NCBI RefSeq assembly: GCF_002355375.1
Contig: NZ_AP017312.1
Location: 3,712,501 to 3,767,500, forward strand
DNA: 55,000 nucleotides
Origin: Aneurinibacillus soli
GTDB lineage: Bacteria; Bacillota; Bacilli; Aneurinibacillales; Aneurinibacillaceae
Direction of reading: 5' to 3'
Shown: one piece after another, positions 23,459 to 38,402 of the stretch
How the letters are laid out: every line of letters starts with the position of its first letter
Numbering within the stretch: the stretch's first letter is position 1
Translations under genes and position numbers: made by a program
The notes under the pieces: model-generated
The model's input: the letters and a program-made list of their open reading frames with translations, nothing else
Told to the model about the DNA's origin: nothing
Database searches by the model: none

Positions 23459-23712
23459 ATTCTGCGCAGCCCTGTCCATTTCTTCTCTCTGATATCAAGC
23501 TCCTCACGGGATGTATGGAAGAAATAATACTCTCGTCCTGGATTCTCCTTATGGAGAGCTGTATAGCGTCGTAGTGCGTCCATTGAGTCCTTATAACGAT
23601 CAATAACAGCCAGATCATCAACAATCCGTTTATCATCCTCGGAACGAGCTTTCAACGCTTCAAACACAATCCACTCGTCCTGATAGGCCTGTCTCACTTC
23701 TTGCCACTTCAC
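23455..23712 (-). CDS. Small charged protein coupled to the protease gene
   Basis: An 85-residue, highly charged, mostly helical protein (MKWQEVRQAYQDEWIVFEAL...). The last four bases (ATGA) contain the start of the retropepsin-like gene, so both are translated from one message. It has no membrane segment or signal peptide and resembles small proteins commonly found beside this protease family in bacilli; function is unknown. It is the rightmost gene of element 1 and lies about 130 bases from the truncated spoVR. Confidence 0.75.
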   Translation of the reverse strand: MKWQEVRQAYQDEWIVFEALKARSEDDKRIVDDLAVIDRYKDSMDALRRYTALHKENPGREYYFFHTSREELDIREKKWTGLRRI

Positions 23713-23791
23713 GACATCCCATCCTTTCCGCGTCCTTTTTTACTGATTATACCACATACATCTGGACATCCATATCTCACCGATTTAAAAT

Positions 23792-23830
23792 AAAAGCATG
23801 CGTCTGACGTTAAGGTCATCGCATGCTTTT
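23792..23830 (-). terminator. Terminator just inside element 1 after the spoVR 5' segment
   Basis: A perfect 11-bp stem (23820-23830 with 23792-23802) is followed on the minus strand by TATTTTAAA. It starts 10 bases past the stop of the interrupted spoVR frame, so operon transcripts entering element 1 would end here. Confidence 0.8.
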
Positions 23831-23839
23831 ATCATAATT

Positions 23840-24670
23840 TTAAGCACCTTTGCGAAACGAAGCCCAGCCCTCGTTCATGATCTTCGTCTCGATCTGAGGC
23901 CAGAAATACAACATCTCTTCGCGCATAATCGTGAGTACATCCCGTTGCCACGGCTCCAGACTTGGACTGAACTCCTCAATGAACAACAACAAATCCTTCT
24001 CTGGCTCCGGAGGAAAACGCTTCGCATGCCGCTTCCGTTCCTCATCCGCTGCTTCCCGTTTTTTCCGCTCCTCCTCATCAATCTCCCACAAATCATCATA
24101 CGGCCGGGTCACTCGGGACGTAAACTCTGGTAATTCGTCTTTATTATCCGCCCATGTAAAATGCCGATGTAGCAAACTCGGATCAATATGCTCCTGAATG
24201 CCGAGAATCGCATCCAGAAAATCTTCCACCGTTTCCTGTCCGTATCGGATCTCATACTGGCGCAACCGCTCGGCTGTAGCTGACATACTTTCTACCATAT
24301 CGCGATTCGTCTGGCTGAACCGGACATTGTTTTTAAAAAAATCACAATGTGCCAGCACATGTGCCACAATCAACTTATTTTGAATCAAGCTATTGCCATC
24401 CAGTAGAAATGCATAGCACGGATTCGAGTTAATCACCAGCTCATAAATCTTACTTAACCCGAGATCATACTGCAATTTCATCCGGTGAAACGATTTTCCG
24501 AAACTCCAGTGCGAGAAGCGGGTTGGCATACCGTATGCGCCAAATGTATAAATAATATCTGCCGGGCACACCTCATAGCGCATCGGATAAAAATCCAGGC
24601 CAAATCCTTGCGCAATCTCGGTGATCTCGTCGACTGCCCTTTCTAGTTGCTTCATCTCTTCTTCTGTCAT
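23840..24670 (-). CDS. spoVR: SpoVR, N-terminal segment (5' part of interrupted gene)
   Basis: The frame codes for the first 271 residues of SpoVR (Met-Thr-Glu-Glu-Glu-Met to the Lys-Ile-Met-Asn-Glu-Gly-Trp-Ala-Ser motif) and then five foreign residues (FRKGA) before a TAA at 23840. The genuine part is highly conserved, with Glu-Val-Cys-Pro-Ala-Asp, His-Val-Leu-Ala-His-Cys-Asp-Phe-Phe and Glu-Glu-Met-Leu-Tyr-Phe-Trp-Pro-Gln. The rest is at 4702-5331. The ATG overlaps the yhbH stop (ATGA), so spoVR is normally coupled to yhbH. SpoVR acts in the mother cell during spore maturation; its biochemical activity is not settled. The truncated product lacks the C-terminal 40% and is probably inactive until element 1 leaves. 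Confidence 0.96.
23842..23875. other. Right attachment site of element 1
   Basis: The inner half-site AAGCACCTTTGCGAAACGA (23842-23860) is followed by the 14-bp direct-repeat core (23862-23875), shared with 5327-5340. The likely crossover CA is at 23865-23866, 5 bases from the half-site, mirroring the left end. Confidence 0.9.
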
Positions 24671-24804
24671 CCCGCACTCTCCTTTCCGAAAAATCCCGTC
24701 AGCGCCTTATACACTTCGCCCTTCTCCCGGACAATCGAATATTTGAACTTCGGGTCTTTAATATGCTTATAAGCTGACATTAATGTAGAATGACGGTTGT
24801 ATTG
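24667..24804 (-). CDS. yhbH: YhbH, C-terminal segment (3' part of interrupted gene)
   Basis: The 45 codons from [12 protein letters not shown] to Phe-Phe-Gly-Lys-Glu-Ser-Ala-Gly are the conserved end of the YhbH/YeaH family. They are missing from the 5' segment at 35469-36482. The frame has no start: a TAG precedes it two codons upstream, in element sequence. The stop TGA overlaps the spoVR ATG. Joining at the CA (24803-24804 with 35467-35468) gives Gly-Glu-Val-Asn-Gln-Tyr-Asn-Arg, the expected family sequence, and a 383-residue protein. Confidence 0.95.
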
Positions 24805-24830
24805 ATTAAACTATTCATGATATATACAAA
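24801..24830. other. Left attachment site of element 2
   Basis: The inner half-site GATATATACAAA (24819-24830) is the exact inverted partner of 35441-35452. Both are 14 bases from the shared dinucleotide (TG on the plus strand, 24803-24804 and 35467-35468). The sequence identity across the crossover is minimal, as allowed for serine integrases that need only two matching bases. Confidence 0.85.
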
Positions 24831-25046
24831 TTAACTAGTGTTCCCTCTCGTTTATAAATTTATACCGGACCTTGTTAAATTTATTCTCTACTCATATCAA
24901 AACAAAACGTCCAGTAAGTACTGAGCTTTTCTTATTTCTTCGGTGTCCAAATAAGTAAGCATTCGCTACTTAATCTTGGCCACAAGGAGGGTATCAGAAA
25001 AGTCATAAAGTAGTCATGTGACCGATTCTCCTCACCGTCCTTCTAG

Positions 25047-25080
25047 GCAAAATAAAAGGAGCAGCTTTTTCCGCTGCCCC
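25047..25080 (-). terminator. Terminator of the SpoIIAA-like gene
   Basis: On the minus strand GGGGCAGC (25073-25080) pairs with GCTGCTCC (25058-25065) and is followed by TTTTATTTTG. The stretch 24831-25046 between it and the attachment site shows no clear gene; a promoter for the downstream yhbH 3' segment and spoVR could lie there. Confidence 0.75.
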
Positions 25081-25088
25081 CCACCTAT

Positions 25089-25448
25089 TTATTCTTGTGT
25101 GATCCATTCCCACGCTTCATTCTGCTGTTCTAGATCGAAGTACTTCATATCGGCTTTAATAAAATAATCTTCTATTTTGATAATCGGCTTCATCCACTTC
25201 CGATCACTTACTACGGCGACTTTGTCGTAATACTTATAGAATTCTTTATTAAATTCTATATCCTCTAAAATAGCATCCCAGGAAACCCCTGTGTATTCTC
25301 CAACCATCATCAGCACTCGAATCTTGCCATAACGATCGGCTATTTCTCGGAAAGCTTGCTCAACATCCGGGTAGTCCTTTTTTGTTACCTTTTCACTGAC
25401 TTCAATCGCTACAACAGCGTCACTACGACTTTCTATCACTTTTATCAT
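25089..25448 (-). CDS. SpoIIAA-like (STAS-fold) protein
   Basis: A 119-residue cytoplasmic protein of the SpoIIAA-like/DUF3478 type. It has the alternating strands and helices of a STAS fold: an opening Ile-Lys-Val-Ile strand, Val-Val-Ala-Ile-Glu-Val, Arg-Val-Leu-Met-Met-Val, Val-Ala-Val-Val-Ser-Asp-Arg-Lys-Trp and a final Ala-Trp-Glu-Trp-Ile helix. Unlike true SpoIIAA I see no phospho-serine motif, so regulation of an anti-sigma factor should not be assumed. Start ATG 25448 follows an AAGGTGA box; a GTG nine bases earlier is the alternative. It is the first complete gene inside element 2 beside the spoVR side. Confidence 0.75.
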   Translation of the reverse strand: MIKVIESRSDAVVAIEVSEKVTKKDYPDVEQAFREIADRYGKIRVLMMVGEYTGVSWDAILEDIEFNKEFYKYYDKVAVVSDRKWMKPIIKIEDYFIKADMKYFDLEQQNEAWEWITQE

Positions 25449-25586
25449 AGAGATCACCTTCCCTTCCCCATATTCTATTCGGTATAGAGATGGGCTTTCC
25501 TTGTACCGCGTAGCAAACTATATGACAAATATGTGAGTATGGCACATGATTTTTCCGTAAAATCAAAACAACCTGCCAGTCTAACT

Positions 25587-25775
25587 GAACCTCTCATGAC
25601 TAAAGTCATGAGGTTCTAAGGTACTTTCATTCAGCCTTCGTCTGAATGACCGAAAACGAGTTTTCGGCTGACATCAGCCACTAAGCTATTTCCCTTAGAC
25701 TTTCATGGACAAGGCAACCATTGCTGCCATTATCGTCCTGTAGGCTCGGTTCAAAACCCTTTTGGATCGAAGTTT
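25587..25775 (-). ncRNA. IS right end and possible TnpB guide (omega) RNA region
   Basis: Downstream of the tnpB stop lie structured bases: a hairpin around CATGACTAAAGTCATG (25587-25616) and shorter ones near 25630-25670 (TTCAGCC/GTCTGAA-type pairings). In IS200/IS605 elements the guide RNA of TnpB is made from the 3' end of tnpB into this right end. That such an RNA exists here is inference from family knowledge. Confidence 0.35.
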
Positions 25776-27223
25776 TACAAGCCGATACTGCTTACTTGTT
25801 TCTTGCTCAAATGTTTAATTCGTTCCATTTCCTGTTCGTGCTTACCAAAGAAGTTGTTCCATGTTTCATTTGCTCGTCCAACATCTACTTCACGCAGATT
25901 GTCTTTTGTATTCATGATTAGAAAGGCACTATACAAATCACGTTGCACATCACCTTGCTCAAAGTGGTTCCAACGTTTTGAGAGCTTTTTCTTCACGCAC
26001 GTTTGCGTGAAGTGTTCAAATTGACTGGCTTTCACTTTAGTGGTGTCAATCCGCTTTAGTTTTAAGCCGAAGTAGTTTAGTTTGTTGTCGATAATCGAAA
26101 GAAGCATAGATGGCGCACGATTCGCTACTGACTTTCCAAATCGTTTTTTACGTTTGTATCGTCCCGTCTTTTCGCTAATCTCTGTTTTCTTTGCTTTTGC
26201 TTGAAGTCCTTTGAAATTCATGGTTTCAACTCGGACATCCAGCCCCAACGAAAGAATATAATTAGCCAGTTGATTGTGTGATTGCCTGCGCTTATCCGCA
26301 ATTTTTCGACTCATTTCAGCGAACTCTTGCCGAGCTTTCTTGTAGTTTTCACTTTGAATCCATTTCTCTCGATTGGATTTATTGATTGTGCCATCTTCCT
26401 TGTATTTGTTCGGGTTATTTGCTCTACGACTGCGGTCTAACTTACGCTGTAGCATCCGTTTTTGACGTTCATCTACTGACAAACCTTCCGCTAGCTCAAA
26501 CAGCTTCACTTCCTTTTCAGAAGTAATGGCGAGTGTTGATGTGCCAATATCTAATCCGACACGAGCGTTTTCATCTTTGGAATGATTATGATTGCGTTTC
26601 TTTGGTGGAAACCCTTCTAAGGCAAATTGAACGAAGTAACGATTTTTACCACGAATCACTTTCTTTACAAGTCGGCAATATTTGATTTTATCTTGAAGCG
26701 CAAGATGTGCGTATTCATCTTGGTTTTTTATCATGACAGGCAGGATAAGTCCTAACCATTCCATGCGTTTGTTTTCGGGAAAGTAACGAAAACCAGTCTT
26801 GTTTGTCTTTTCTTCTAACGAAAAGAATTGACCTACTGAACAAAAATGTACTTTCTTACCGTTCCCATACATGACTTTCTCAATTGCTTGAAACGCTCGT
26901 TCCGCGATATTCTGAGCCATTTGAGAACCGATATTTTGCTTAAGCGTACGCCCCATTCCTTGAACGTACCTATTTAAATCGAATTTACGAACGCCGTATT
27001 GTTCTTTGAATTGATTCAGAAGTTGATTGCGTTCTTTGCCTTTCGGCATACGAACCACTTCCCAATACCTAGGATTACGTATCATGTATTTGTATCTACG
27101 CCACGCTTCACCTAGACAGGCATTGTAGATCGTTCGCCCAATGTGTAAGCGCTTTTCCAGGATGTGTTCTTGCCATGTTTCAACTTGTAAAGGCAACGTA
27201 AGCACATAGGTTGGCGTTGTCAT
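25775..27223 (-). CDS. tnpB: TnpB-like RNA-guided nuclease/transposase protein
   Basis: A 482-residue TnpB-family protein. RuvC-like motifs are visible: Val-Gly-Leu-Asp-Ile-Gly-Thr-Ser-Thr (first Asp, about 225), Val-Glu-Thr-Met-Asn-Phe (Glu, about 335) and Val-Gln-Arg-Asp-Leu-Tyr-Ser-Ala (last Asp, about 425). The zinc ribbon usual between the last two motifs is absent: only one Cys (Gln-Thr-Cys-Val) remains, followed by Lys-Lys-Lys-Leu-Ser-Lys-Arg-Trp. Variants of this kind occur in bacilli. TnpB proteins cut DNA guided by an RNA from the element's right end and help keep the element at its site. It follows tnpA by 19 bases. Confidence 0.88.
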   Translation of the reverse strand: MTTPTYVLTLPLQVETWQEHILEKRLHIGRTIYNACLGEAWRRYKYMIRNPRYWEVVRMPKGKERNQLLNQFKEQYGVRKFDLNRYVQGMGRTLKQNIGSQMAQNIAERAFQAIEKVMYGNGKKVHFCSVGQFFSLEEKTNKTGFRYFPENKRMEWLGLILPVMIKNQDEYAHLALQDKIKYCRLVKKVIRGKNRYFVQFALEGFPPKKRNHNHSKDENARVGLDIGTSTLAITSEKEVKLFELAEGLSVDERQKRMLQRKLDRSRRANNPNKYKEDGTINKSNREKWIQSENYKKARQEFAEMSRKIADKRRQSHNQLANYILSLGLDVRVETMNFKGLQAKAKKTEISEKTGRYKRKKRFGKSVANRAPSMLLSIIDNKLNYFGLKLKRIDTTKVKASQFEHFTQTCVKKKLSKRWNHFEQGDVQRDLYSAFLIMNTKDNLREVDVGRANETWNNFFGKHEQEMERIKHLSKKQVSSIGL

Positions 27224-27242
27224 CTAGGTTCAGCTCCTTTCG

Positions 27243-27644
27243 CTATTTCTTTTGTTGATTACGAATGTATTGGCGTATTTGTTGTTCTGTATTTTCACTT
27301 ACGGTTGCGACAAAGTAACTAGGATTCCACAAATGACCACCCCACAGTTTCTTTTTTAGTTGGGGAAACTCTTTAAATAGCAACCTTGCTGAAACGCCTT
27401 TTAACGCTTTGATGATATTCGGAATTGAATGTTGTGGATTACAGTCAACCAAGAGATGAACATGGTCACAATCACTTTCGATTTCCGAAATCGTGAAACC
27501 ATTATCTATAGCAATTTGATTGAGTATTTCCTTTAATCGTATATCTATATCGCCAAGTAACACGTTGTGGCGATATTTCACGCACCATACAATATGGTAT
27601 TGGATAGCGTACACATATCCTCTACCATGTTTGACTTCTGCCAT
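27243..27644 (-). CDS. tnpA: IS200/IS605 Y1 transposase TnpA
   Basis: A 133-residue HUH-type single-strand transposase of normal length. The metal-binding His-x-His is in Cys-Asp-His-Val-His-Leu-Leu-Val (about 62-70) and the nucleophilic Tyr in Ser-Tyr-Phe-Val-Ala-Thr-Val (about 110). The beginning (Gly-Tyr-Val-Tyr-Ala-Ile-Gln-Tyr-His-Ile-Val-Trp) is typical. ATG 27644 follows GAGGTG by 6 bases. It recognises the subterminal hairpins and excises and inserts the element as a single-stranded circle. It appears intact. Confidence 0.95.
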   Translation of the reverse strand: MAEVKHGRGYVYAIQYHIVWCVKYRHNVLLGDIDIRLKEILNQIAIDNGFTISEIESDCDHVHLLVDCNPQHSIPNIIKALKGVSARLLFKEFPQLKKKLWGGHLWNPSYFVATVSENTEQQIRQYIRNQQKK

Positions 27645-27742
27645 GCTATCCACCTCAATTACAGGATAACATATGTCAAAATATTTTTCAGGCTATTACT
27701 ACTAAATATCGGTATTTTTGTTAGTAGGTAAGTTAACATATG

Positions 27743-27821
27743 TCGGACAATTGACGTGTCAAAAGACACGCCTTGTCCGAAGCCGAGAACACTCATGACT
27801 AAAGTCACGAGTGTTCTCGGC
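27743..27821. repeat. Left-end hairpins of the IS200/IS605 element
   Basis: Two adjacent hairpins: TCGGACAA with TTGTCCGA (27743-27780), enclosing a CGTGTC/GACACG stem, and a 13-bp perfect stem (27782-27794 with 27809-27821) enclosing a TGAC-TAAA-GTCA inner stem. The inner part is shared with the other end of the element. Confidence 0.8.
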
Positions 27822-28022
27822 TAATTCATAAAAACTGCTTATTCTTCGCTTTTATGGGCATATGCACATCCCGAAAAATAGGTATTTGCATAGAGTGTTA
27901 GGGATATTTCAAGTTGATACTGCGGCGATTCCTTTACAAGATTTTTTCATCTCTTCTCGTCTAAGGCAAAATAACAATGCTGGCAGACACCGACGTTTTA
28001 TTTATTTTTGCTGTTCTTCCTT

Positions 28023-28115
28023 CTACTCTCGTTGCTTTTTCTCCTTTTCCCAATATCTTTGTACACACTCTTCCCAATTGCTCTGCGGGTCCGGCATTAT
28101 CACTCGTGTTTCCAT
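28023..28115 (-). CDS. 30-residue charged protein
   Basis: A very short gene with a clear AAGGGAGGAG box 5 bases before ATG 28115. The peptide METRVIMPDPQSNWEECVQR, followed by a Tyr-Trp-Glu-Lys-Glu-Lys-Lys-Gln-Arg-Glu tail, ends at TAG 28023. It is strongly helical and charged at its C-terminus. It lies about 90 bases downstream of the DUF1540 gene. Function unknown; a peptide regulator or recombination accessory factor is conceivable. Confidence 0.55.
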   Translation of the reverse strand: METRVIMPDPQSNWEECVQRYWEKEKKQRE

Positions 28116-28166
28116 TTTACTCCTCCCTTCTTGTCCTGTTATTGTGCAACAAAAAGCTAAAATGAA

Positions 28167-28194
28167 TAATAAAAAGCCACTCCGAAGAGCAGCT
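28167..28194 (-). terminator. Terminator of the DUF1540 gene
   Basis: On the minus strand AGCTGCTC (28187-28194), a TTCG loop and GAGTGGCT (28175-28182) form a stem followed by TTTTTATTATTC. Confidence 0.7.
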
Positions 28195-28204
28195 TATATT
28201 GGCC

Positions 28205-28360
28205 TTACATGCCAGGCTGGAACGTCTTACAGTCTGTTTCCTCTGTAGTCGAAGCATTCTTGCCTTTGTGGCTTACTACATAAATCTCATTTGCGCTGCA
28301 TTTATCGCCTTGCGCCCAGTACGTACAGTTGTTTACTTCGCAAAGTACATCTTTTGCCAT
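28205..28360 (-). CDS. DUF1540 domain protein
   Basis: A 51-residue protein with an AAGGAGGTG box 8 bases before ATG 28360. It shows the family pattern of four spaced Cys: Val-Leu-Cys-Glu-Val-Asn-Asn-Cys-Thr-Tyr-Trp, Gly-Asp-Lys-Cys-Ser-Ala and Asp-Cys-Lys-Thr-Phe. Such proteins are common in spore formers and probably bind a metal; their role is unknown. It lies within element 2 and has its own terminator. Confidence 0.85.
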   Translation of the reverse strand: MAKDVLCEVNNCTYWAQGDKCSANEIYVVSHKGKNASTTEETDCKTFQPGM

Positions 28361-28841
28361 AGTTATCCACCTCCTTCGTAGTTTATCATGGACAAGTTTC
28401 GCTCTGTCTATTCATATTTGTATTGCACTATTCGTTCGATGTCCCCTTAACGGTTGGCAGACCGCGAAGGATATTTTTTGTAGCTTATCAAAACCTTTAC
28501 TTTCATTTAACCTTCTTTACACTTCAATCACCCATAATAATAACTGTCTCTTATTAAAACCACTCCTCCCCCCCTTTTCTAAGTGAAAGGGGCGTTTTTC
28601 TCTCTTCTTCTGAACTCGCTCCAGCGCTCTTCGAACCGTTTTCGGCTCTTTTTATTGCATCTATCCAAGTTTTGATTCAAAAATAGTTTAAAGATAATTC
28701 AGAAACAACTGATTAAGATGCAAAATCCAAGCAATTTAGCGGTTTTCCCCCTACTTTTTGTTGGCATATAATTTGCTTTATAAAAATATCAGCGATAGGT
28801 TTTTCTCCACTCAAATTACTCTGTTGGGCGTTTACACTTTA
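28361..28841. other. Gene-free stretch with one weak hairpin
   Basis: About 480 bases with no supported gene. Plus-strand frames here lack ribosome binding sites and are poor in typical codons. A short hairpin CCCCTTT/AAAGGGG (28571-28592) followed by CGTTTTT could terminate plus-strand transcripts. The left end must contain the DUF1540 promoter. Confidence 0.5.
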
Positions 28842-28880
28842 GGAAGCGAGATTGCACCCCTTTCTCGCTTCCCTTTTTTT
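28842..28880 (+). terminator. Strong plus-strand terminator without an obvious gene
   Basis: GGAAGCGAGA (28842-28851) pairs perfectly with 28863-28872 and is followed by C and seven T. No plus-strand gene ends before it; it may belong to an unannotated RNA in 28361-28841 or be a remnant. Confidence 0.75.
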
Positions 28881-28910
28881 GTCCATTAACAGATCAGCAA
28901 TTTTTAATCG

Positions 28911-29102
28911 TTAAGCCGTATCCCCACTGCACATCTGTTCGGCTACACGCTCTTTGTATTTAGTCAGCTTGCTCACCATCTGTGTAATGGCTGCTAGAGC
29001 TGCTGGTTTAATATCTACATCCAGCTCAAACGTGAGCTTCATTTTCTTATCCGTCACATTTCGACCAGCCACATAGGATTTAAATTCAGCATTCAAGTTC
29101 AT
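28911..29102 (-). CDS. Small protein of unknown function, 63 aa
   Basis: A 63-residue protein beginning MNLNAEFKSYVAGRNVTDKK. The start at ATG 29102 follows a GGGGGG box and lies 43 bases downstream of the preceding gene. Longer in-frame versions would overlap that gene and start at TTG. A strand-rich first half (Met-Lys-Leu-Thr-Phe-Glu-Leu-Asp-Val-Asp) is followed by a helix. It probably forms a transcription unit with the 80-residue gene upstream. I do not recognise the family. Confidence 0.6.
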   Translation of the reverse strand: MNLNAEFKSYVAGRNVTDKKMKLTFELDVDIKPAALAAITQMVSKLTKYKERVAEQMCSGDTA

Positions 29103-29145
29103 GTTATTGCCCCCCGTTCCAAGCCAGACTCCCGAAGGGCCTGAA

Positions 29146-29388
29146 TCATACAGTAGATTCAAGTTTTCCTTTATTCAACTCATACTCTGCACGAATAATT
29201 CTTCTTTTGTGGTTGTACCAAGTAGCTCGAACCCAAGCTCTCTTAAGCATCTGCACCTCTGGAAGCGAGTCATTATCTCGAAACCATTGCGCCTGCTGCT
29301 CGTCTGTCATAAACGGAAGTGCTGAGCGAATCTTGATGGTCGTGTTACCGATCTGTGTGGTGTAGCAAGGACGTTCATTTTGTTCCAT
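29146..29388 (-). CDS. Small protein of unknown function, 80 aa
   Basis: An 80-residue protein starting at ATG 29388 (GGGGG box 8 bases upstream); an open frame reaching 29592 has no matching ribosome binding site. The sequence MEQNERPCYTTQIGNTTIKI runs into Phe-Met-Thr-Asp-Glu-Gln-Gln-Ala-Gln-Trp-Phe and a basic helical end. It precedes the 63-residue gene by 43 bases on the same strand and may form a pair with it. Proteins of this look occur near phage-like islands of bacilli, but I cannot name a family. Confidence 0.6.
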   Translation of the reverse strand: MEQNERPCYTTQIGNTTIKIRSALPFMTDEQQAQWFRDNDSLPEVQMLKRAWVRATWYNHKRRIIRAEYELNKGKLESTV

Positions 29389-29650
29389 ATGCTCATCCCC
29401 CTTTGCACCATATCTATGCGTAGGAGAGCATTGGACAACCCTATTCATTTGGGGAGCCTCCTTTCTTGTAAGACTCCCTTTTTTTTGTCGAAATTTATCT
29501 ATTTCTTTTTGTAGTTTCCTAGAACCATGATATTTAGAATAATAAACATACATATTTTCAGTTGAATTTTCTACATTCAACATAACTATCAATCATTAAA
29601 GGCCAGATTCAGAATGTGCTACTAGCAAAGAACATATTGCACACACAAAA

Positions 29651-29694
29651 AACCGACATCATGATGAACAGCAAACGCTGGCGTGATGTCGGTT
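29651..29694. terminator. Hairpin upstream of the sigma-E-like gene
   Basis: AACCGACATCA (29651-29661) and its exact complement (29684-29694) form an 11-bp stem. It is followed by CTTTTAT on the plus strand and TTTTTTGTG on the minus strand. It lies 26 bases before the start of the sigma-like gene, so it can insulate or attenuate that gene. Confidence 0.6.
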
Positions 29695-29720
29695 CTTTTA
29701 TAAGCTAAGGAGGAAGTAAA

Positions 29721-30083
29721 ATGACATATATCGGCGAATCAGAACCATTACCACCACCATTGAACCAGGAGGAAGAAGAATACTTGCTCAGTCGTCTGCA
29801 TACAGGTGATCAAGAGATTCGCTCGATGCTGATTGAGCGCAATTTACGGCTCGTTGTGTACATTGCCCGCAAGTTTGAGAACGTTGGGGTTAATATCGAA
29901 GATTTGGTCAGCATCGGTACAATCGGACTCATTAAGGCGGTTAATACATTTGATCTGGAGAAAAAAATCAAGCTGGTCACCTACGCATCGCGCTGTATCG
30001 AAAACGAGATTCTCATGTTTTTGCGCCGCAACAGTAAAGTGAGGGCCGAGGTGTCATTTGACGAACCCTTAAACATTGACTAG
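29721..30083 (+). CDS. Sigma-E-like protein: region 2 only, no pro-sequence
   Basis: A 120-residue protein very similar to the N-terminal half of mature sigma-E of spore formers: Tyr-Ile-Gly-x-Ser-Glu-x-Leu-Pro-Pro-Pro-Leu, [18 protein letters not shown] and [12 protein letters not shown]. It starts at the point where pro-sigma-E is cleaved, with a perfect AAGGAGG box 6 bases before ATG, so the membrane pro-peptide is missing. It stops at TAG exactly where sigma-E continues with Trp-Asp-Gly (TGG to TAG would do this); the next codons still read Asp-Gly-Lys-Glu before similarity fades. Region 4 is absent, so it could bind core polymerase or anti-sigma partners but not a -35 box. It may be a remnant. 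Confidence 0.8.
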
Positions 30084-30176
30084 GATGGGAAAGAGCGCTA
30101 GCAAGGTGTGACTGAGCTTCTTTCCTATAAATCGGTTAAACACAAATTGTTGTTAAAACGAAAAAATTGAAGAAGA

Positions 30177-30199
30177 AAAGCGGGCAAATCGCCCGCTTT
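30177..30199. terminator. Bidirectional terminator
   Basis: AAAGCGGGC (30177-30185) pairs perfectly with 30191-30199 around a 5-base loop. T-rich tails exist on both strands. It serves the chemoreceptor gene (minus) and the sigma-like gene (plus). Confidence 0.85.
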
Positions 30200-30213
30200 C
30201 TCTAACCTGCACA

Positions 30214-32181
30214 CTATGCTTTAAATTGTTTTACAATGTCCTCAAGCTCTTCCGCCATTTTAGCTAAAGAGGCTGCTGTAGCGGAAACCTCCTCCATCGA
30301 AGCCAATTGTTCTTCCGTGCTAGCTGACACCTCATTAATACCTTCTGATACTTTTTCTACCGTCTTTGTTACAGAGCGAATTGACGTAACAAACTGCTCG
30401 GTACTTGCTGTAATCTGTTGAACCGAAGCGGAAACCTCATTAATTTCATGGCTTACTTCATCTATAGATTGGTAGATTTGAGTAAAGGAGGCTCCAGCAT
30501 CATCGACAACCTCCATACCTTTTGCTACTTCTCTTCTACTATTCTCCATCGAACGTAACGCAGTATCCATTTTATTTTTAATCATATCAATTAATTCTGT
30601 AACACTACCGGCCGATTGAGAAGATTGCTCTGCCAGCTTTCGAACTTCATCCGCTACAACAGCAAACCCTCGTCCATGTTCTCCCGCTCTTGCTGCTTCG
30701 ATGGCAGCATTCAAAGCCAAAAGGTTTGTTTGGCTTGATATATCTGTAATCAGCCCAGCAAAATTTCCAATTTGATCAATACTTTCATGTAAATGCTTGA
30801 TAATACTAGATAACTCATCGACTGAGTTTTGAATAAAGTTCATCTGCTGAACGGCTGTAAGAATGGTTTCATTTCCTTTGGACGCTATAGTAGAAGTATT
30901 AGCCATAGATACAGACGTGATCTGCGTATGCTGGGCGATTTCCTGGAGCATATCAGACATGTCAGCAATCGTTGCTGACATACCCTCTACGTTTCTCGCC
31001 TCCTCCTCTGATCCGACTGCAATCTCATGAACTGTACCAGAAATATGTTCCGTCGCCTTAGCTGTTTCTTGGGAACTTGCCATTAGTTGTTCGGAGGCAA
31101 CCGCCAAAAGATCTACCCTTTCTTTTACCTGGTATAAAACGGACTGTAAGGATTCACTCATGTGATTAAAGTGATTTCCCAGTTGACCAAGCTCATCTTT
31201 AGCGTTCAAGCTAACTCTCTCCGTTAAATCACCCTGGCTAATTTTATCCGAAGCATCACTTAACAATTTGAGTGGTCTTGTAATGGAAATAATCACCCAA
31301 TATGTCACAACAGCTCCCAACAGCAGCGAGACGATAATCGTAACAACTGTAGTAAAGAAAATACCTTGAACACTCTCTTGAATTTCTGCTAATTTTATCG
31401 TGCCAGCTACTTTCCATCCTGTAATCGTATTCGTTGTAAAAAATGTTTCTTTTTGCTCCCCATCCTCGTTAAATATATATGTGCCTTCATCTTTTTTAAA
31501 TAGTTCCCCCATAGTCTGTTCAGGGATCGCGTCACCACTTTTTATCGTAGGATGAACAATGGCTTTCCTGGTTTGATCGATGATAAATCCATACCCATGT
31601 TCGCCAATTTTTGTTTGTTTCACTGAATTACTCAGACTGGTAAGATCTAAATCGATAGCAACAACCCCGCTTCCATCTTTCAGCGGTTTTGAAACGCTTA
31701 CAACAAATACATTTTTAAGCTTATCAAGGTATGGCTCTGAAACACTTGCGCTCTCTTTATTTTGCATCGCTTCTTGATACCATACTCGCTTCCTGGGATC
31801 ATAGTCTGACGGAAGTTTGTCCGCCCCGTCTGCAATCAGAATCCCCGTTTGTGTACCAACGTATGCAGACGTAATTTCCGGATGCGTACTTTGGTAACGA
31901 TGAATAATTTCCATAACACGTGGGCTTTGTTTCCCATTATATAAACTTGCATCAATAGACTGAGATAAAAAGCCTACACTCTTTTTCTCATTTTCTATCG
32001 TATTGTTAATTAAGTCGTTTAGAAATTTCACGTTTCGTTCCGCAGAATTGACCATATCGTTTTGTATCCGGTCTTTAGCAGTATTATACGAGAAACTTCC
32101 AATAACTAGACTCGGCAGCAGTAAAAGGAGAATAAAAGCAACCTGTAACCTTCTTCCTACACTTGATGCAATCCAATTCAT
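30214..32181 (-). CDS. Methyl-accepting chemotaxis protein, dCache type
   Basis: A 655-residue membrane chemoreceptor. A first transmembrane helix (about 13-33) is followed by an extracellular double-Cache sensor (to about 280) containing Trp-Tyr-Gln-Glu-Ala and Asp-Leu-Asp-Leu-Thr ligand-pocket motifs, a second transmembrane helix (about 281-305), a HAMP domain (Ile-Thr-Arg-Pro-Leu ... Asp-Leu-Thr-Glu-Arg-Val) and a long signalling coiled coil. The hairpin tip carries [16 protein letters not shown], which binds CheA and CheW. The ligand is unknown, possibly amino acids. ATG 32181 is preferred over ATG 32184 for spacing to GAGG. It is intact and an unusual passenger for an intervening element. 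Confidence 0.93.
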
Positions 32182-32318
32182 CATATACCTCAACCCCTTT
32201 TACTAACATTTGTGAATAAAAACTGTATAATTCCATAAATAAATATTATCTATAAAATACCTTTTAGCATAGTGTAAAAATTGCAATATGATATATAAAA
32301 ATCCCTACATAAAATTGA

Positions 32319-32405
32319 TTGACTTTTTTAATCCATATTTCTACATAATATCCCCCTACAAATTGCGAGGAAGCCAATGATACAATCATGGGGAGGTGAT
32401 TGTAT
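32319..32405 (+). promoter_or_regulatory. Promoter and start-codon hairpin of the element 2 recombinase
   Basis: TTGACT (32319-32324) and TACATA or CATAAT (32342-32349) form a possible promoter. Just downstream a perfect inverted repeat, ATACAATCA (32380-32388) and TGATTGTAT (32397-32405), encloses the GGGGAGG ribosome binding site in its 8-base loop and includes the first two bases of the ATG in its right arm. It could be an operator or an RNA hairpin limiting translation. Confidence 0.55.
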
Positions 32406-33963
32406 GTACCGCCCTACTGGAAAAGATGTATTCATTTACCTTCGGAAAAGTCGTAAGGACATCGAAGAAGAGAAAAAAGCACTGGATACTGGCAAACAGT
32501 ACGACACCCTATCCAAGCACCGTAAAGAGTTGCTAGAGCTAGTGAAGCGCGAGCAGCATAATGTGATCGACATATTTGAGGAAGTAGTATCTGGGGAATT
32601 TCTATCCGAGCGCCAAATCGCCCAGGAGATGCTTCGTCAGGTCGAAGAAGGATCTATCGAAGGCGTTGTTGTCATGGACCTTGACCGTCTAGGTCGTGGC
32701 GATATGATTGATGCCGGTACGATCTTCCGGTCTTTTAAGTTCTCTGACACACTCATTATCACACCGAATGAAGTGATTGACTGTAATTCAGAAGGAGCTG
32801 AGCTGCTGTTTGGAGTAAAGTCGATCATCGCTCGTGAGGAACTGAAGCAGATCAATAAGCGTCTGCAAGGTGGCCGCCGTCGATCCGCAAAGGATGGGAA
32901 ATCGATCACCAGAAAGCCCCCGTATGGATACACGCGTGACGAGAACTTGAAGCTGCACCCCAATCCGGAAGAAGCTCAGATCGTGCGCAAAATATTCGAG
33001 CTTGCTGCCGAAGGAAATGGTCGCCAGGCAGTGGCAAAAAAATTAGAACAGCTTAGTATTAAGCCACCGGAGGGAAATCTCTGGGAGCAATCAACCATTA
33101 GCTATATCGTGAAGAACGAGGTTTATCTCGGGCATATCGTTTGGGGCAAACACAAATACTCTAAGCGAAACGGGAAGCGTGTAAAGAAAAGTGTCCCACC
33201 TGAATTGTGGGTCCGACACGAGGATGCGCATGAAGCAATCATCTCGAAGGAATTGTTTGAACAGGCGAATCTGGCTATTACCGGCCGGTATCGCGCCCCG
33301 ACAAGAGAGGGGCTTCAACTGAGCAACCCACTGGCCGGTATCGTCAAGTGCAGCCGTTGCGAACGTGCTTTATCTCAATCCCGTACAAAAGATAGACCGA
33401 ACCCGCAATTGCGTTGCACCAACCCAAACTGTCAGCCATTCCAGAAAGGTGTTCTTCTCCCTATTTTGGAACAAAGAATACTAGATTCGCTTTCTATGTT
33501 GGTAGAACAACCCTCACTTCATCAGGATGAGCTGGCTGCTTCGATAGAAAAGGAAGAGTCTACGATTGAACATAAACAGAAGCAAATCAAAAAGCTAGAA
33601 AAAGAGATTCAAGAACTGCACGGGATGCGAGAAACAGTATTCGAAATGCTAGAGAAAAAAGTATATACCGAGGACATCTTCTTACAACGCCATCAGGCGA
33701 TCGAGCAGAAACTGAAAGAAGCTGAATCGAATATCGAGCAGCTGAAAAAAGAGATAGAGCTGGAAGAAGCCCAGCTCCATCATAAAGAGAATATTATCCC
33801 TCAGATCAAAAAGGTCATCGAAGAGTATCAGGAGATCGATGATCCAGTGGAGAAAAACCACCTCCTCAAATCCATTCTCGACAGAGTATACTTTACTCGA
33901 AAGAAGGAATGGACGAAGAAAGATCAGTTTGAGCTTGAAATTGTACCAAGACTACCGATATAG
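32404..33963 (+). CDS. Large serine recombinase, SprA-like (probable element 2 integrase)
   Basis: A 519-residue serine integrase starting at ATG 32404 (GGGGAGG box 7 bases upstream; an ATG at 32377 has none). Ser16 is in Ile-Tyr-Leu-Arg-Lys-Ser-Arg-Lys-Asp, the variant of the SPbeta integrase SprA (Tyr-Leu-Arg-Arg-Ser-Arg-Gln-Asp) rather than of SpoIVCA. Asp-Leu-Asp-Arg-Leu-Gly-Arg-Gly, Arg-Glu-Glu, a recombinase domain beginning Lys-Pro-Pro-Tyr-Gly-Tyr, a zinc ribbon with Cys-Ser-Arg-Cys and Cys-Thr-Asn-Pro-Asn-Cys, and a long coiled coil (about 385-470) follow in order. It is the only recombinase in element 2 apart from tnpA, so it should catalyse the yhbH excision. SprA itself rejoins spsM in sporulating mother cells. 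Confidence 0.92.
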   Translation: MYRPTGKDVFIYLRKSRKDIEEEKKALDTGKQYDTLSKHRKELLELVKREQHNVIDIFEEVVSGEFLSERQIAQEMLRQVEEGSIEGVVVMDLDRLGRGDMIDAGTIFRSFKFSDTLIITPNEVIDCNSEGAELLFGVKSIIAREELKQINKRLQGGRRRSAKDGKSITRKPPYGYTRDENLKLHPNPEEAQIVRKIFELAAEGNGRQAVAKKLEQLSIKPPEGNLWEQSTISYIVKNEVYLGHIVWGKHKYSKRNGKRVKKSVPPELWVRHEDAHEAIISKELFEQANLAITGRYRAPTREGLQLSNPLAGIVKCSRCERALSQSRTKDRPNPQLRCTNPNCQPFQKGVLLPILEQRILDSLSMLVEQPSLHQDELAASIEKEESTIEHKQKQIKKLEKEIQELHGMRETVFEMLEKKVYTEDIFLQRHQAIEQKLKEAESNIEQLKKEIELEEAQLHHKENIIPQIKKVIEEYQEIDDPVEKNHLLKSILDRVYFTRKKEWTKKDQFELEIVPRLPI

Positions 33964-33980
33964 AATACTATTTAACCGAT

Positions 33981-34004
33981 AAGCTGCTTCTAGCAGCTTT
34001 TTTT
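33981..34004 (+). terminator. Terminator of the recombinase gene
   Basis: AAGCTGCT/AGCAGCTT (33981-33999) with a 3-base loop and seven T in total, 18 bases after the stop codon. Confidence 0.85.
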
Positions 34005-34211
34005 GTCCATACAGTTATAAATTTGAATTAAATTAACTCTAAGCTTCAATTACCATTTTGATAAATATGATATTTTATGACTATATTTAATGTTCCCTTT
34101 ATGATAAAAGTATCATTTACCCAAAAATGGAAGGTAAATGAATTGAGGTGTCGAAAAGGTTTTTACTTAGGATGGAAATAATTTCATTCAATTGAAGAGG
34201 GGGAAAAATTT

Positions 34212-35345
34212 ATGAAAAAGTTATGGGGAAATAAACATATCACCCATAAAGTTCAACAGTCAAAAGAGCGTCGTTTTTTTCTTATTACAATGCTTTCATG
34301 TGCTTTTGTTTTCTCTCCATCTATCGGCAACGCAGCTACAACTCTGGATAGAAACAACCAAGATAGTCTCTATACGGGGTCTGTAGAATCTAATAGTGAA
34401 TCATTCAAAACTCTCCTAAAAGAAGCAGAAGCAGGAGATGATGAATCACAGTATCTAGTTGGAGAGGCATATTATTACGGTTCAGGAGTTCAAAAAAACT
34501 ATAAAAAAGCATTTGAATGGTATATGAAAGCAGCTGTACAAGGCAATATAGATGCAGAATATACCATTGGATATTTTTATTATAAAGGTTTAGAGATACC
34601 AAAGGATGATAAAAAAGCGATGGAGTGGTACCTCAAGGCTGCTGAACAAGGGCAAACTTCTGCTCAAACTAGTGTTGGATCTTTTTATCGCCAAGGGATA
34701 GCTACCTCTCAGGATTATAAAAAGGCCATGGAATGGTTCCTCAAGGCCGCTGAGCAAGAGGATGTTGATGCTCAGTTTAATATAGGTAATTTATATTTAA
34801 ACGGATTGGGCGTTACCGAAGATTATAAGAAAGCCATGGAATGGTTCCTTAAGGCTGCTGCTCAAGGGGATACTGATGCTCAACATATCATAGGACTCTT
34901 ATATGAAAACGGACAGGGTGTTACTAAAGATTATAAGAAAGCAATGGAATGGTTCCTCAAAGCTGCTGAACAAGGAAATGCTGATGCCCAGTACAGTATA
35001 GGTCTTGCATATGAAAATGGACACGGAGTTGCAAGAAACTATAAGAAAGCCATGGAATGGTACCTCAAGGCTGATGCTCAAGAAGATGCTGATGCTCAGT
35101 GTAATATAGGCGTTTTATATCATAATGGATTGGGCGTTACCAGAGACTATAAAAAGGCCATGGAATGGTACCTCAAGGCCGCTGAGCAAGAGAATGCTAA
35201 TGCTCAATATAACATAGGAATCTTATATGAACACGGACAGGGAATTGTCAAAGATGACAATAAAGCCATAGAATGGTATCAAAAAGCGGCCAAACAAGGA
35301 GATCAAGATGCACTGGATCGGATTAAGGCTTTGCAAAAAAAATAA
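34212..35345 (+). CDS. Secreted or membrane-anchored Sel1-repeat protein
   Basis: A 377-residue protein with a GAGGGGG box 8 bases before ATG. A basic start and a hydrophobic segment (about 22-40, Phe-Phe-Leu-Ile-Thr-Met-Leu-Ser-Cys-Ala) look like a signal peptide or anchor, ending in Gly-Asn-Ala-Ala. Residues 65-370 consist of about eight 36-residue Sel1-like repeats with the core Tyr-Lys-Lys-Ala-Met-Glu-Trp-Tyr-Leu-Lys-Ala-Ala-Glu-Gln and Asp-Ala-Gln-Tyr-Asn-Ile-Gly, which stack as an alpha solenoid for protein binding. The partner is unknown. Repeats are similar at DNA level too. It is the last gene of element 2 before the yhbH junction. Confidence 0.9.
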   Translation: MKKLWGNKHITHKVQQSKERRFFLITMLSCAFVFSPSIGNAATTLDRNNQDSLYTGSVESNSESFKTLLKEAEAGDDESQYLVGEAYYYGSGVQKNYKKAFEWYMKAAVQGNIDAEYTIGYFYYKGLEIPKDDKKAMEWYLKAAEQGQTSAQTSVGSFYRQGIATSQDYKKAMEWFLKAAEQEDVDAQFNIGNLYLNGLGVTEDYKKAMEWFLKAAAQGDTDAQHIIGLLYENGQGVTKDYKKAMEWFLKAAEQGNADAQYSIGLAYENGHGVARNYKKAMEWYLKADAQEDADAQCNIGVLYHNGLGVTRDYKKAMEWYLKAAEQENANAQYNIGILYEHGQGIVKDDNKAIEWYQKAAKQGDQDALDRIKALQKK

Positions 35346-35396
35346 TCGATTATGGTTATAGAATAAAGCCTCCCTATATCCTAGATAAAGGATTCT

Positions 35397-36482
35397 TTAA
35401 GGTATTAAAAAAGGTTCGAGTCTTATTTCTCTCGAACCTTTTTGTATATATCTTAAAGATGTATAATGGTTCACCTCACCATATCCGAACATATTACACT
35501 TCTCCATCAATTCCCGCACCAGCTTCACGCAGCGGTCATTATCTGACGTCAGATTATCTCCATCAGAAAAATGAAACGGATAAATGTTATACATCGACGG
35601 TGGATAGCGTGCGTCGATAATCTCCAGCGCTTTGCGGTACGCAGACGAGCAAATCGTTCCCCCGCTCTCTCCCTTGGAGAAAAACGCTTCCTCCGTCACT
35701 TCCTTTGCCTCCGTATGATGGGCGATAAACACAATCTCCACTTTTTCATACTTTGTGCGCAAAAAGCGCAGCATCCAGAAGAAGAAACTGCGCGCGACAT
35801 ACTTTTCAAGCTGACCCATCGAACCAGACGTATCCATCATCGCAATGATTACCGCGTTCGAATGCGGTTCGATAATTTCCTCCCACGTCTTAAAACGCAA
35901 GTCATCATTCGAAATATCTTGAATTCCCTCACGCCCCGCCAGCCCGTTACGCCGAAGTGCTTCAAGCAGTGTACGTTTCTTATCGATATTACCCATAAGA
36001 CCTTTTTTACGGATGTCATTGAACCGTATATCCGTCACGACAATCTCATCCTGATCTTTCTGTTCAAGATTCGGCAGCTCCATCTCAGCGAACAGCATCT
36101 CCTGTAGCTCTTCAACCGAGATTTCTGCCTCGTAGTAATCTTCACCTGCCTGATCGCCCGCTCCTTGCCCCTTGCCTGGCCCCTGTTTTGGGTCACCATC
36201 CCGCGCTACCACGTCGCCTACCTTTGAGTCTCCGTCCCCCTGGCCGACATGCTGGCTCTTATTATAGTTGTAACGAATGCGATACTCGTCGAGCGAGCGG
36301 ATCGGGATTTTCACCATATCCCGCCCGTTCGACATAATAATGCTTTCTTCACTGACAAGATCGGGGAGGTTTTTGCGGATCGCATCTTTCACTTTTTGCT
36401 GGTGCCGCATCTGGTCCTGATGCCCTTTACGATGCAACGACCAGTCCTCCCGCGAAATGATAAATGATGGCTCATGTTTCAC
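35397..36482 (-). CDS. yhbH: YhbH, N-terminal segment (5' part of interrupted gene)
   Basis: The first 338 codons belong to YhbH/YeaH, a family co-expressed with PrkA. They contain a Gly/Asp/Gln-rich segment (about 100-130), a von Willebrand A-like fold with Met-Asp-Thr-Ser-Gly-Ser-Met-Gly (about 225) and [10 protein letters not shown] at the end. The remaining 23 residues are foreign and stop at 35397, inside a terminator hairpin. The true C-terminus (45 codons) is at 24667-24804. Bacillus subtilis YhbH has 392 aa, compared with 383 after rejoining. The gene starts 21 bases after prkA, so they form one operon. The truncated protein lacks the conserved last part and may be inactive. Confidence 0.96.
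35407..35443. terminator. Bidirectional terminator just inside element 2
   Basis: A 13-bp stem (AAAAAGGTTCGAG/CTCGAACCTTTTT) with a 10-base loop lies between the convergent Sel1 gene and the truncated yhbH. It would stop prkA-yhbH transcripts within 60 bases of entering the element. It overlaps the outer edge of the attachment half-site by three bases. Confidence 0.88.
35441..35470. other. Right attachment site of element 2
   Basis: The inner half-site TTTGTATATATC (35441-35452) lies 14 bases from the crossover dinucleotide TG (35467-35468), mirroring the left end at 24801-24830. Confidence 0.85.
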
Positions 36483-36503: not shown

Positions 36504-38402
36504 CTATCGATTCAGGAGGCTGCCGACATAGCGCAGCAATTCGTTGGCGCAGATCGGGCAGTATCCGTGTCCATCGATAAGACGGGCGGTCACTTCATTT
36601 ACTTTTTTCAGCTGCATTTCATCCGGGGTTTTGCTAGATGTCGTAATCTTCACAACATCCTTCAGGTCAGCGAATAACTTCTTCTCAATCGCTTCACGCA
36701 GACGCTCATGACTGTTATAATCAAAACGTTTGCCTTTGCGCGCATACGCGGAGATGCGAATGAGAATTTCTTCGCGGAACGATTTTTTCGCATTTTCGGA
36801 AATGCCAATCTGTTCCTCAATGGAACGCATGAGTTTTTCGTCCGCATCCATTTCCTCCCCGGTGATCGGATCGCGTACTTTCGCCTTATTGCAGTACGAC
36901 TCCACATTGTCAAGATAGTTATCCATGAGCGTTTTCGCGGACTCTTCATACGAGTAGACGAATGCTTTCTGCACTTCCTTCTTCGCCAGCTCATCGTACT
37001 CTTTGCGTGCGATGTTAATAAACGTCAAGTACCGTTCTTTCTCTTCCTTCGATACGGTCGCGGTCTGATCGAGGCCATCCTTAAGTGCGCGCAAAATATC
37101 GAGCGCATTGATGCATTCCGTATCGCGGCGAATGAGTGCGCTGGAGATGCGGTTAATCACATAGCGCGGATCAATTCCACCCATGCCTTCGTCAATGAAT
37201 TCGGTTTGCAACTCTTTAATATCGGATTCCTTGAACCCTTCAACCGATTCTCCATCGTAGAGACGAAGCTTCTTCAGCAAATCGACACCCTGCTTCTTGG
37301 AATCTTTGAGACGAGTGAGAATGGAGAAGATGGCTGCGGCGCGAAGCGCGTGCGGTGCGATGTGCACGTGACCGAGGTCGCTTTGCTTAATGAGCTTGTC
37401 GTAAATTTTCTCTTCATCTGATACACGCAAGTTATACGGAACACGCATGACGATAATCCGGGACTGTAACGCCTCGTTTTTCTTATTGCCAATGAACGTT
37501 TTGTACTCCGATTCATTCGTATGAGCAACAATTAATTCATCAGCTGAAATAAGAGCGAATCGCCCGGCTTTGAAGTTCCCTTCCTGTGTAAGTGAAAGCA
37601 GGTTCCAGAGGAATTTCTCATCGCACTTCAGCATCTCCTGGAATTCCATCAAGCCACGGTTCGCCTTGTTCAACTCTCCATCAAAACGATATGCACGTGG
37701 ATCAGACTCTGAACCGTACTTCGTAATTGTTGAGAAGTCAATACTTCCGGTTAAATCTGCGATATCCTGCGACTTTGGATCAGACGGACTGAATGTTCCG
37801 ATCCCCTTGCGTTTTGCCTCCGAGAACAGAATTCGCTCGATCGGCATATCCTCCAATCGGCCGCCGTATTCTGTCTCAAGACGCATCTGGTTATACGGGG
37901 ACAGATTGCCTTCGATTTTGATTCCAAGCTCTTTTTCAATATCCGGACGCAAGTCATGCGGCACGAGGTGCAAGGGGTCCTCTTGCATTGGGCAGCCTTT
38001 AATGGCATATACAGCTCCGTCATCTGTACGTGAGAAATGTTCCAATCCACGCTTTAGCATCGTCACAATTGTCGATTTTCCGCCGCTAACCGGCCCCATG
38101 AGAAGTAGAATCCGCTTTCGTACATCCAGACGCATAGCCGATGAATGGAAATATTCCTCTACCAGTTTCTCAATCGCACGATCCAGACCGTAAATTTCCC
38201 GACTGAAAAAGTTGTATGTTTTGCTTCCGTTTTCGTTATGTTCAATCCCGGCATGTTTAATCATGTTATACACCCGGGAGTGTGCAGTTTGAGCCACATG
38301 AGGATTTTTGCGTACGATTTCCAAATACTCGGCGAACGTGCCTTCCCACATCAGTTGTTCTTCACGGGCGCGGTAGTCTGCGATCCGTTTTAGGATATCC
38401 AT
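36504..38402 (-). CDS. prkA: PrkA, AAA+ serine kinase/protease family protein
   Basis: A 632-residue protein, essentially the length of Bacillus subtilis PrkA (631 aa). An AAA+ domain has Walker A Gly-Pro-Val-Ser-Gly-Gly-Lys-Ser at 103-110; the C-terminal PrkA domain ends in a Cys-Pro-Ile-Cys pair. The family was described as a serine kinase and more recently as a Lon-like ATP-dependent protease; in bacilli it supports sporulation in the mother cell. It is the first gene of prkA-yhbH-spoVR, the counterpart of enterobacterial yeaG-yeaH (and ycgB). It is intact, unlike the two genes behind it. CGTATTCT at 38430-38437 on the minus strand resembles a sigma-E -10 box, but no matching -35 is clear. 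The ATG is preceded by GGAGAGGAG. Confidence 0.97.
   Translation of the reverse strand: MDILKRIADYRAREEQLMWEGTFAEYLEIVRKNPHVAQTAHSRVYNMIKHAGIEHNENGSKTYNFFSREIYGLDRAIEKLVEEYFHSSAMRLDVRKRILLLMGPVSGGKSTIVTMLKRGLEHFSRTDDGAVYAIKGCPMQEDPLHLVPHDLRPDIEKELGIKIEGNLSPYNQMRLETEYGGRLEDMPIERILFSEAKRKGIGTFSPSDPKSQDIADLTGSIDFSTITKYGSESDPRAYRFDGELNKANRGLMEFQEMLKCDEKFLWNLLSLTQEGNFKAGRFALISADELIVAHTNESEYKTFIGNKKNEALQSRIIVMRVPYNLRVSDEEKIYDKLIKQSDLGHVHIAPHALRAAAIFSILTRLKDSKKQGVDLLKKLRLYDGESVEGFKESDIKELQTEFIDEGMGGIDPRYVINRISSALIRRDTECINALDILRALKDGLDQTATVSKEEKERYLTFINIARKEYDELAKKEVQKAFVYSYEESAKTLMDNYLDNVESYCNKAKVRDPITGEEMDADEKLMRSIEEQIGISENAKKSFREEILIRISAYARKGKRFDYNSHERLREAIEKKLFADLKDVVKITTSSKTPDEMQLKKVNEVTARLIDGHGYCPICANELLRYVGSLLNR

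Follow-up and report, generated by a model that had tools for sequence, protein, structure and literature searches.

In Aneurinibacillus soli, the sporulation gene yhbH is interrupted by a 10,664-bp element that carries its own serine recombinase; we analyzed it within a stretch of 55,000 nucleotides (contig NZ_AP017312.1, positions 3,712,501 to 3,767,500 of the forward strand), hereafter called the window, in whose coordinates its features are given. As the main explanation, we consider it likely that the element is excised in development, rebuilding yhbH, and that it originated from a phage resembling Jimmer1 that became domesticated. Bacteria with a split yhbH would then probably have to cut such elements out at each sporulation.

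The genes at this locus are ordered prkA, yhbH, and spoVR on the minus strand, and the start of spoVR overlaps the end of yhbH. The yhbH 5' part (35469–36482, minus), with 338 codons ahead of the crossover core, matched DUF444 and the NCBIfam model TIGR02877 (spore_yhbH; 564.8 bits, cut-off 468, profile positions 1–330 of 371), and the 3' part (24667–24802, or 24667–24804 with the core, minus) holds the 45 C-terminal codons counting the core. The core itself, read from the junctions, is the dinucleotide CA (TG on the plus strand), which lies at 35467–35468 on the N side and at 24803–24804 on the tail side (both minus). A sequence-only reading of this DNA had claimed that a 45-codon tail is detached from the rest of yhbH by about 10.66 kb, which was confirmed to the base; it had also predicted that joining at a shared CA yields a 383-residue protein, and the pieces so joined indeed gave an open frame of 383 amino acids. 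The closest relative, G006 (genomes are designated by G numbers), has an intact yhbH with 98% identity, and its DNA aligned to both window flanks, the alignments overlapping by 13 bases at the junction point. An intact yhbH elsewhere in the genome would have spoken against the sequence-only reading; in the complete host genome, a single contig of 4,116,770 bp, only the two pieces matched at E ≤ 0.001. The element shows three features of sporulation gene-intervening elements: it interrupts the coding region of a mother-cell sporulation gene at a short common core, its exact removal restores the frame, and the recombinase that it carries is intact. yhbH is known to be under sigma-E control. Its mother-cell status was taken from B. 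subtilis and not from the host; SpoIIID, a mother-cell regulator, binds a region near B. subtilis yhbH, and a gene in that region is SpoIIID-responsive (PMC517825).

The recombinase is a large serine integrase of 519 amino acids (32404–33963, plus; Pfam Resolvase and Recombinase, PHROG 95 integrase), and its gene is oriented towards the yhbH 5' part. The phage attachment site (attP) was rebuilt from the element ends, which consist of the half-site adjoining the yhbH 5' part, TTATACATCTTTAAGATATATACAAA (35441–35466, minus), and that adjoining the 3' part, TTTGTATATATCATGAATAGTTTAAT (24805–24830, minus). The rebuilt window site was an inverted repeat centred on the CA, with 18 of 30 positions matching (shuffles, 13.6; as high in 0.8%). 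In all 22 elements for which attP was rebuilt, the best of seven inverted-repeat registers was the core, and the repeat reached p < 0.05 in 20, the exceptions being G279 (0.107) and G252 (0.169). Since the junctions were located by yhbH's own codons, namely the conserved GEVN motif on the N side and the following codons on the tail side, both copies of the CA belong to the host; independent support for the core comes from the symmetry centre at CA, the two sides in the window otherwise sharing little. Resolvase and Recombinase domains, a dinucleotide core, and an inverted-repeat attP together mark a large serine integrase, the exact cleavage dinucleotide being a putative one. Judged from sequence, it is as good as shown that such an integrase inserted the element at a fixed bacterial attachment site (attB) at yhbH codon 339.

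The same site is linked to infectious phages. Jimmer1, an isolated Brevibacillus phage, carries a free attP-type site (31167–31168) next to its integrase. This site agreed with the window attP in 35 of 52 non-core bases, a value not reached in any of 2000 shuffles. In the same comparison, 20 of the 22 elements stood at values reached by <1% of shuffles, and the remaining two were G279 (20 of 2000 shuffles) and G350, which was unremarkable (93 of 2000). The integrases of the Brevibacillus phages Jimmer1, Jimmer2, Osiris, and Powder were 62% identical to that of the window (for Jimmer1, over 99% of the length). We also examined 30 IMG/VR loci with a related integrase, several of which end close to it. 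Eleven (L126–L130, L133, L135–L137, L139, and L140) held a yhbH stretch beyond the tail alone, L155 held the last 80 yhbH residues, four held only a tail piece, and 14 held no yhbH. At base level, the prophage contigs L126, L127, L128, and L130 join yhbH at the same CA, and a whole yhbH stands beside the integrase in L133, L135–L137, L139, and L140. With a related integrase, a matching attP, and the same attB, the element has a Jimmer-like integration module. The four phages resemble the window element in integrase, Jimmer1 also in attP arms and core, and both Jimmer1 and Jimmer2 in having a relative of its candidate directionality factor (see below); they differ in being phages of 53–54 kb, whose structural genes were not seen in the window element. 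Indeed, no phage structural or lysis genes were seen among the open reading frames of 24805–35466 (all by eye, eight with Pfam, and five with PHROGs), so the element was classed as a remnant and not as a phage. Because the integrases are 62% identical and the rebuilt attP matches that of Jimmer1, the element is, by these sequence measures, a decayed and domesticated relative or descendant of Jimmer-like temperate Brevibacillus phages. The main text of a paper on Jimmer-like phages (PMC4909266) mentions neither yhbH nor attP.

The sequence-only reading had suggested searching other genomes for YhbH proteins with a distant tail. We searched 402 genomes, in which yhbH was present in 266 (262 of 398 class genomes and all four from a family search), and inspected the best yhbH matches in all 266, the last 39 inspected all being full-length. 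The gene was split in 32 of these 266 Bacilli genomes: 25 at codon 339 (site A), 11 at codon 221 (site B, where the cut lies in the Ser following DTSG), and 4 at both. Site A was occupied in G000, G001, G003, G007 (A. tyrosinisolvens), G011, G204, G096 (Brevibacillus sp. SYP-B805), G364, G399 (B. reuszeri NIT02), G117, G077, G279, G161, G274, G244, G288, G103, G292, G172, G252, G315, G341, G377, G350, and G235, and site B in G117, G274, G244, G332, G288, G176 (Brevibacillus fulvus DSM 25523), G297, G261, G217, G226, and G368, so that yhbH lies in three pieces in G117, G274, G244, and G288. The N side alone was read in G001 (element side masked at the junction), G172, and G341, and G332 gave the first piece alone. 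Within the window's own order, the yhbH tail was distant or missing in 6 of 15 genomes; leaving aside G008, discussed below, five are split (G000, G001, G003, G007, and G011). Rejected as splits were G157 and G089, whose match stops at a contig edge, G190, with short partial matches, and G056 and G058, whose two match pieces lie in one frame. A site-B cut with a recombinase also occurs on a contig of B. licheniformis SRCM100027, which did not belong to the sample. On this contig (L157, NZ_CP021678), deposited as a plasmid, prkA and trmL are found together with a yhbH piece that ends in the recombinase element; the contig is probably chromosome rather than plasmid.

The elements varied widely in size. 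At site A, the pieces are separated by 4 kb (G244), 8.8 kb (G279), 10.3–10.7 kb (G007 and the window), 25 kb (G003), 47–58 kb (four genomes of family f23, that of Brevibacillus), about 80 kb (G103), or 131 kb (G288). Inspection by eye revealed phage-like genes in the L006 and L012 elements, and the recombinase was kept in small elements in which no phage structural gene was seen, such as those of G007 (10.3 kb), G217 (3.5 kb; site B, a recombinase plus an MFS transporter), and G226 (5 kb). The G226 element bears a complete aconitase gene as cargo beside its recombinase (L105, 1831–4539), and its excision would take that gene out of the mother cell. The element in A. tyrosinisolvens contains two ATP-grasp genes of the YheC/D type and a gene for a subtilase bearing SLH domains (L003, 11686–14434 and 14559–17087). 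A "Sporulation protein YhbH" has been listed among Paenibacillus larvae prophage genes (PMC9341999), an entry that may represent the edge of such a yhbH prophage.

The rejoined gene was open and full-length, i.e., at least 360 amino acids from the match start, in all 28 genomes with all pieces (18/18 site-A-only, 6/6 site-B-only, and 4/4 three-piece), the site-B joins being made at the Ser codon, which is not a proven core. The 12 differences between the detached window tail and G006 were all synonymous (over 28 synonymous and 107 nonsynonymous sites), and the N part of yhbH gave a ratio of nonsynonymous to synonymous substitution rates (dN/dS) of 0.024. An open full-size recombinase was present in 24 of 25 site-A genomes; in the exception, G172, the contig breaks off within such a gene. 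The same held for 10 of 11 site-B genomes, the 3.5-kb stretch of G332 having no recombinase. At site A this gene mostly stands within about 100 bases of the junction; the distance is 1.4–1.8 kb in G204 and G364, and 1.5 kb in the window because a gene for a Sel1-repeat protein (34212–35345, plus; cargo, Pfam Sel1) intervenes. The recombinases of G003 and G001 gave a dN/dS of 0.036; no ratio is given for the window recombinase because its synonymous sites were saturated against the five relatives compared.

Certain site-A elements repair the gene that they enter. In G008, as read directly, the element supplies a yhbH tail itself, which keeps the gene whole and leaves the old tail stranded; G008 was therefore rejected as a split and classed as restoring. 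We infer the same for G263 and G343, because a whole yhbH stands there beside a site-A recombinase and a stray tail. Extra tails beside a whole yhbH, some of them weak or with stops, were also found in at least the genomes G283, G248, G256, G308, G146, G116, G281, G400, and G401. The locus of G283 (L122–L123) has a whole yhbH followed by three stray yhbH tails, which are perhaps stacked tail-carrying elements. The read-throughs of G292, G350, and G315 were inspected and showed no resemblance to YhbH tails.

The adjacent gene was interrupted as well. In the window, a separate element of about 18.5 kb (5364–23855), with three serine recombinases, interrupts spoVR behind residue ~272, leaving a 5' part (residues 1–273; 23855–24670, minus; protein match) and a 3' part (4702–5364, minus; residues 259–474 matched at 4717–5364). 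One of the recombinases (13603–15066, plus) falls in the tree clade of enzymes at spoVR codon ~272, and the two others lie at 9476–12513 (minus; family match). The claim that yhbH and spoVR are split by separate elements was therefore supported, the yhbH element having a serine recombinase of its own. G006 has a whole yhbH and a split spoVR, at which three closely related recombinases are present. In a non-random choice of 50 genomes (yhbH-split genomes and relatives), 48 had a spoVR match, and adjacent yhbH and spoVR were both split in six (G000, G103, G279, G315, G244, and G350). spoVR lies in three pieces in G350; yhbH and spoVR each lie in three pieces in G244, which makes four elements, with the first yhbH piece on another contig; and both genes are split but not side by side in G292. 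In G343, a whole spoVR and several stray C-terminal parts of this gene lie on contigs 4, 13, and 17, which looks as though elements with tails had stacked at spoVR too.

We constructed a maximum-likelihood tree of 52 recombinases. It included the Jimmer1 enzyme, that of the B. licheniformis contig, and four bystanders from the spoVR elements of G000 and G006, and omitted the site-A enzyme of G274, which spans two sequence stretches. With five labels (site A, site A restoring, site B, spoVR ~272, and spoVR ~60), this tree required four changes, the minimum, vs a mean of 24.2 after shuffling. The G008 enzyme, which groups with that of the window, carried the label site A in this analysis, although its element is restoring; long branches, which call for caution, lead to G244, G350, B. 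licheniformis, and the bystanders. We propose that developmental gene splitting in Bacilli likely has a hot spot at yhbH-spoVR, with at least four fixed sites (yhbH codons 221 and 339 and spoVR codons ~60 and ~272), each used by a long-standing recombinase clade and one still used by infectious phages, such that some species would need two, three, or four excisions.

Excision by a serine integrase would call for a directionality factor. Nine window open reading frames besides the recombinase were compared with 42 stretches, and other yhbH elements contained relatives of just one, the small conserved protein encoded at 29146–29448 (minus); the Sel1 gene matched solely a displaced fragment in G006. 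Relatives of the 29146–29448 protein were found in eight further site-A genomes, among them G007 with its small element, and in both Jimmer1 and Jimmer2, and eight aligned family members share 19 invariant columns, including KIRS and LPEV. We regard this protein as a candidate recombination directionality factor because its distribution fits what such a factor should show. The displaced G006 fragment (L058, ~2.38 Mb), which stands far from the whole yhbH of that genome, consists of a yhbH piece (residues 221–334) beside Sel1-repeat sequence resembling that of the window element, and is perhaps a displaced remnant of a yhbH junction.

These results bear on the strongest alternative, namely ordinary prophage insertion and decay, in which yhbH was merely inactivated, is dispensable in the host, and is not rebuilt in development. 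We regard this as unlikely, as neutral decay would be expected to break the tail, the frame, or the recombinase in many genomes; instead, the window tail has accumulated synonymous changes alone, every rejoinable yhbH is intact, and recombinases remain open in small elements where no phage structural genes are visible. The restoring tails in some relatives further suggest that loss of YhbH is costly. Jimmer-like phages nevertheless make stable lysogens (PMC4909266), several site-A elements are large (47–80 kb), and several further points weigh against developmental excision, some of them also for simple decay. No developmental promoter signal was found: consensus scans gave no significant sigma-E/K promoter before the window recombinase or the candidate factor, and sigma-E/sigma-K motifs were not enriched upstream of recombinases (CATANNNTA, 3 vs 2.2 expected; CATAmAnT, 3 vs 1.1 expected). 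Five split genomes have a divergent second YhbH (60% identity in G077; 45–46% in G288, G297, G261, and G217), which might cover for the split copy, and the constraint on tail and recombinase may be partly older than the insertion. As certain relatives get by without excision because their element supplies a yhbH tail, regulated excision does not follow from integration alone. The 29146–29448 protein matched no named family in Pfam, PHROG, or NCBIfam, its fold model was poor (predicted local distance difference test score, 63.6), and, at the threshold used, relatives were not found in more distant site-A elements or in the examined stretches of G008 and G117.

It is very improbable that the unjoined gene works as it stands, the 361-amino-acid read-through protein with 23 element-encoded residues replacing YhbH: although a restoring element is known in G008, which reads into a YhbH-like tail, the window read-through looks unlike the conserved tail by eye, the original tail still appears constrained, and site-B splits end right after the DTSG motif, where a working protein is hardly possible. 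An assembly artefact or chance similarity, in favor of which nothing was found, has a negligible probability, given that the rebuilt attP is an inverted repeat centred on CA, that the cut falls at the same codon in 24 further genomes, and that an isolated phage carries that attP.

We therefore return to excision in development, which we place in the mother cell because the tail and the recombinase are constrained, small elements keep little but the recombinase, and comparable cases are known. In the proposed course of events, the integrase, together with the candidate directionality factor, would recombine both attachment sites in the sporulating mother cell; the element would be released as a circle, and the 383-codon yhbH would be rebuilt before it is needed, while the forespore would keep the element. 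The spoVR element would leave independently via its own recombinase, so that the prkA-yhbH-spoVR locus would be whole only after two excisions (four in G244).

The remaining contents of the yhbH element appear to be cargo and a secondary insertion. A methyl-accepting chemotaxis-type protein (30214–32193, minus; translation judged by eye), a DUF1540 protein (28205–28360, minus; Pfam), and a SpoIIAA-like (STAS) protein (25089–25457, minus; Pfam) are encoded as cargo, and an IS200/IS605-type insertion with tnpA and tnpB lies within the element (25775–27653, minus; Pfam OrfB_IS605 for tnpB, tnpA by eye). A truncated sigma-E-like gene (29721–30083, plus; Pfam and NCBIfam matches and translation) lacks the pro-sequence and all beyond region 2, directly after which it stops (TAG). 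Its start was placed at what we take to be the mature N end, by comparison with B. subtilis SigE. It was 89% identical to the open-frame sigE at C1:1633986 of the same genome, and no counterpart was found in the other yhbH elements compared. Consensus scans of the regions upstream of the cargo genes gave no convincing sigma-E/K promoter; one sigma-E-like match before the chemotaxis gene (p 0.017) was discounted as one of ten tests. Upstream of yhbH, prkA (serine protein kinase; 36504–38402, minus) matched NCBIfam PRK15455 with 346 bits, below the cut-off of 576, and prkA precedes yhbH in relatives.

Split sporulation genes were formerly a handful of targets, to which yhbH adds one, at two sites and sometimes together with its neighbor; this one gene holds the whole series from large elements with phage-like genes through 10-kb remnants and 3.5-kb recombinase-plus-cargo elements to self-repairing versions. 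Questions that become testable are what leads phages to choose mother-cell genes, how one cell coordinates several excisions, and how a phage turns into an obligate part of host development; the attachment sites, together with many integrases, also offer recombination tools new material. The known gene-intervening cases are skin, SP-beta, vfbin, vrin, and gin (PMC4191935, PMC6957869, PMC5595907). The view of precedents in the sequence-only reading held as far as was searched: spoVR elements are published, and no report of a split yhbH was recognised in the literature searched, from which subscription journals were mostly absent.

Compared with these systems, vrin in spoVR of G. thermoglucosidasius C56-YS93 (PMC4191935, PMC6957869) is an intervening element in the adjacent sporulation gene, where the window also has one; it is likened here by description, its target gene is other than yhbH, and the spoVR recombinases of the window belong to other clades than the yhbH recombinase. 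Tn916 has one of its ten most used B. subtilis insertion sites between yhbH and the next gene (PMC11838328), but this is a different element with a hot spot just downstream of yhbH, outside the gene. The gin element in gerE of B. cereus ATCC 10987 is a non-phage element with serine recombination and a small factor, GirX (PMC5595907), and has three recombinases, as does the window's spoVR element, whereas the yhbH element has one. The skin element in sigK follows the same logic, in that mother-cell excision rebuilds the gene (PMC6957869), with a different target gene. SP-beta in spsM is a temperate phage inserted in a sporulation gene, comparable in this to the phage-derived yhbH element, and it has left remnants of 4–20 kb in B. 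amyloliquefaciens spsM (PMC4191935, PMC6957869). Its recombinase, YokA, is 29.5% identical to the window recombinase over 97% of the length, and the two differ in target gene, attachment sites, and phage family; excision has been demonstrated for SP-beta and is proposed here for the yhbH element.

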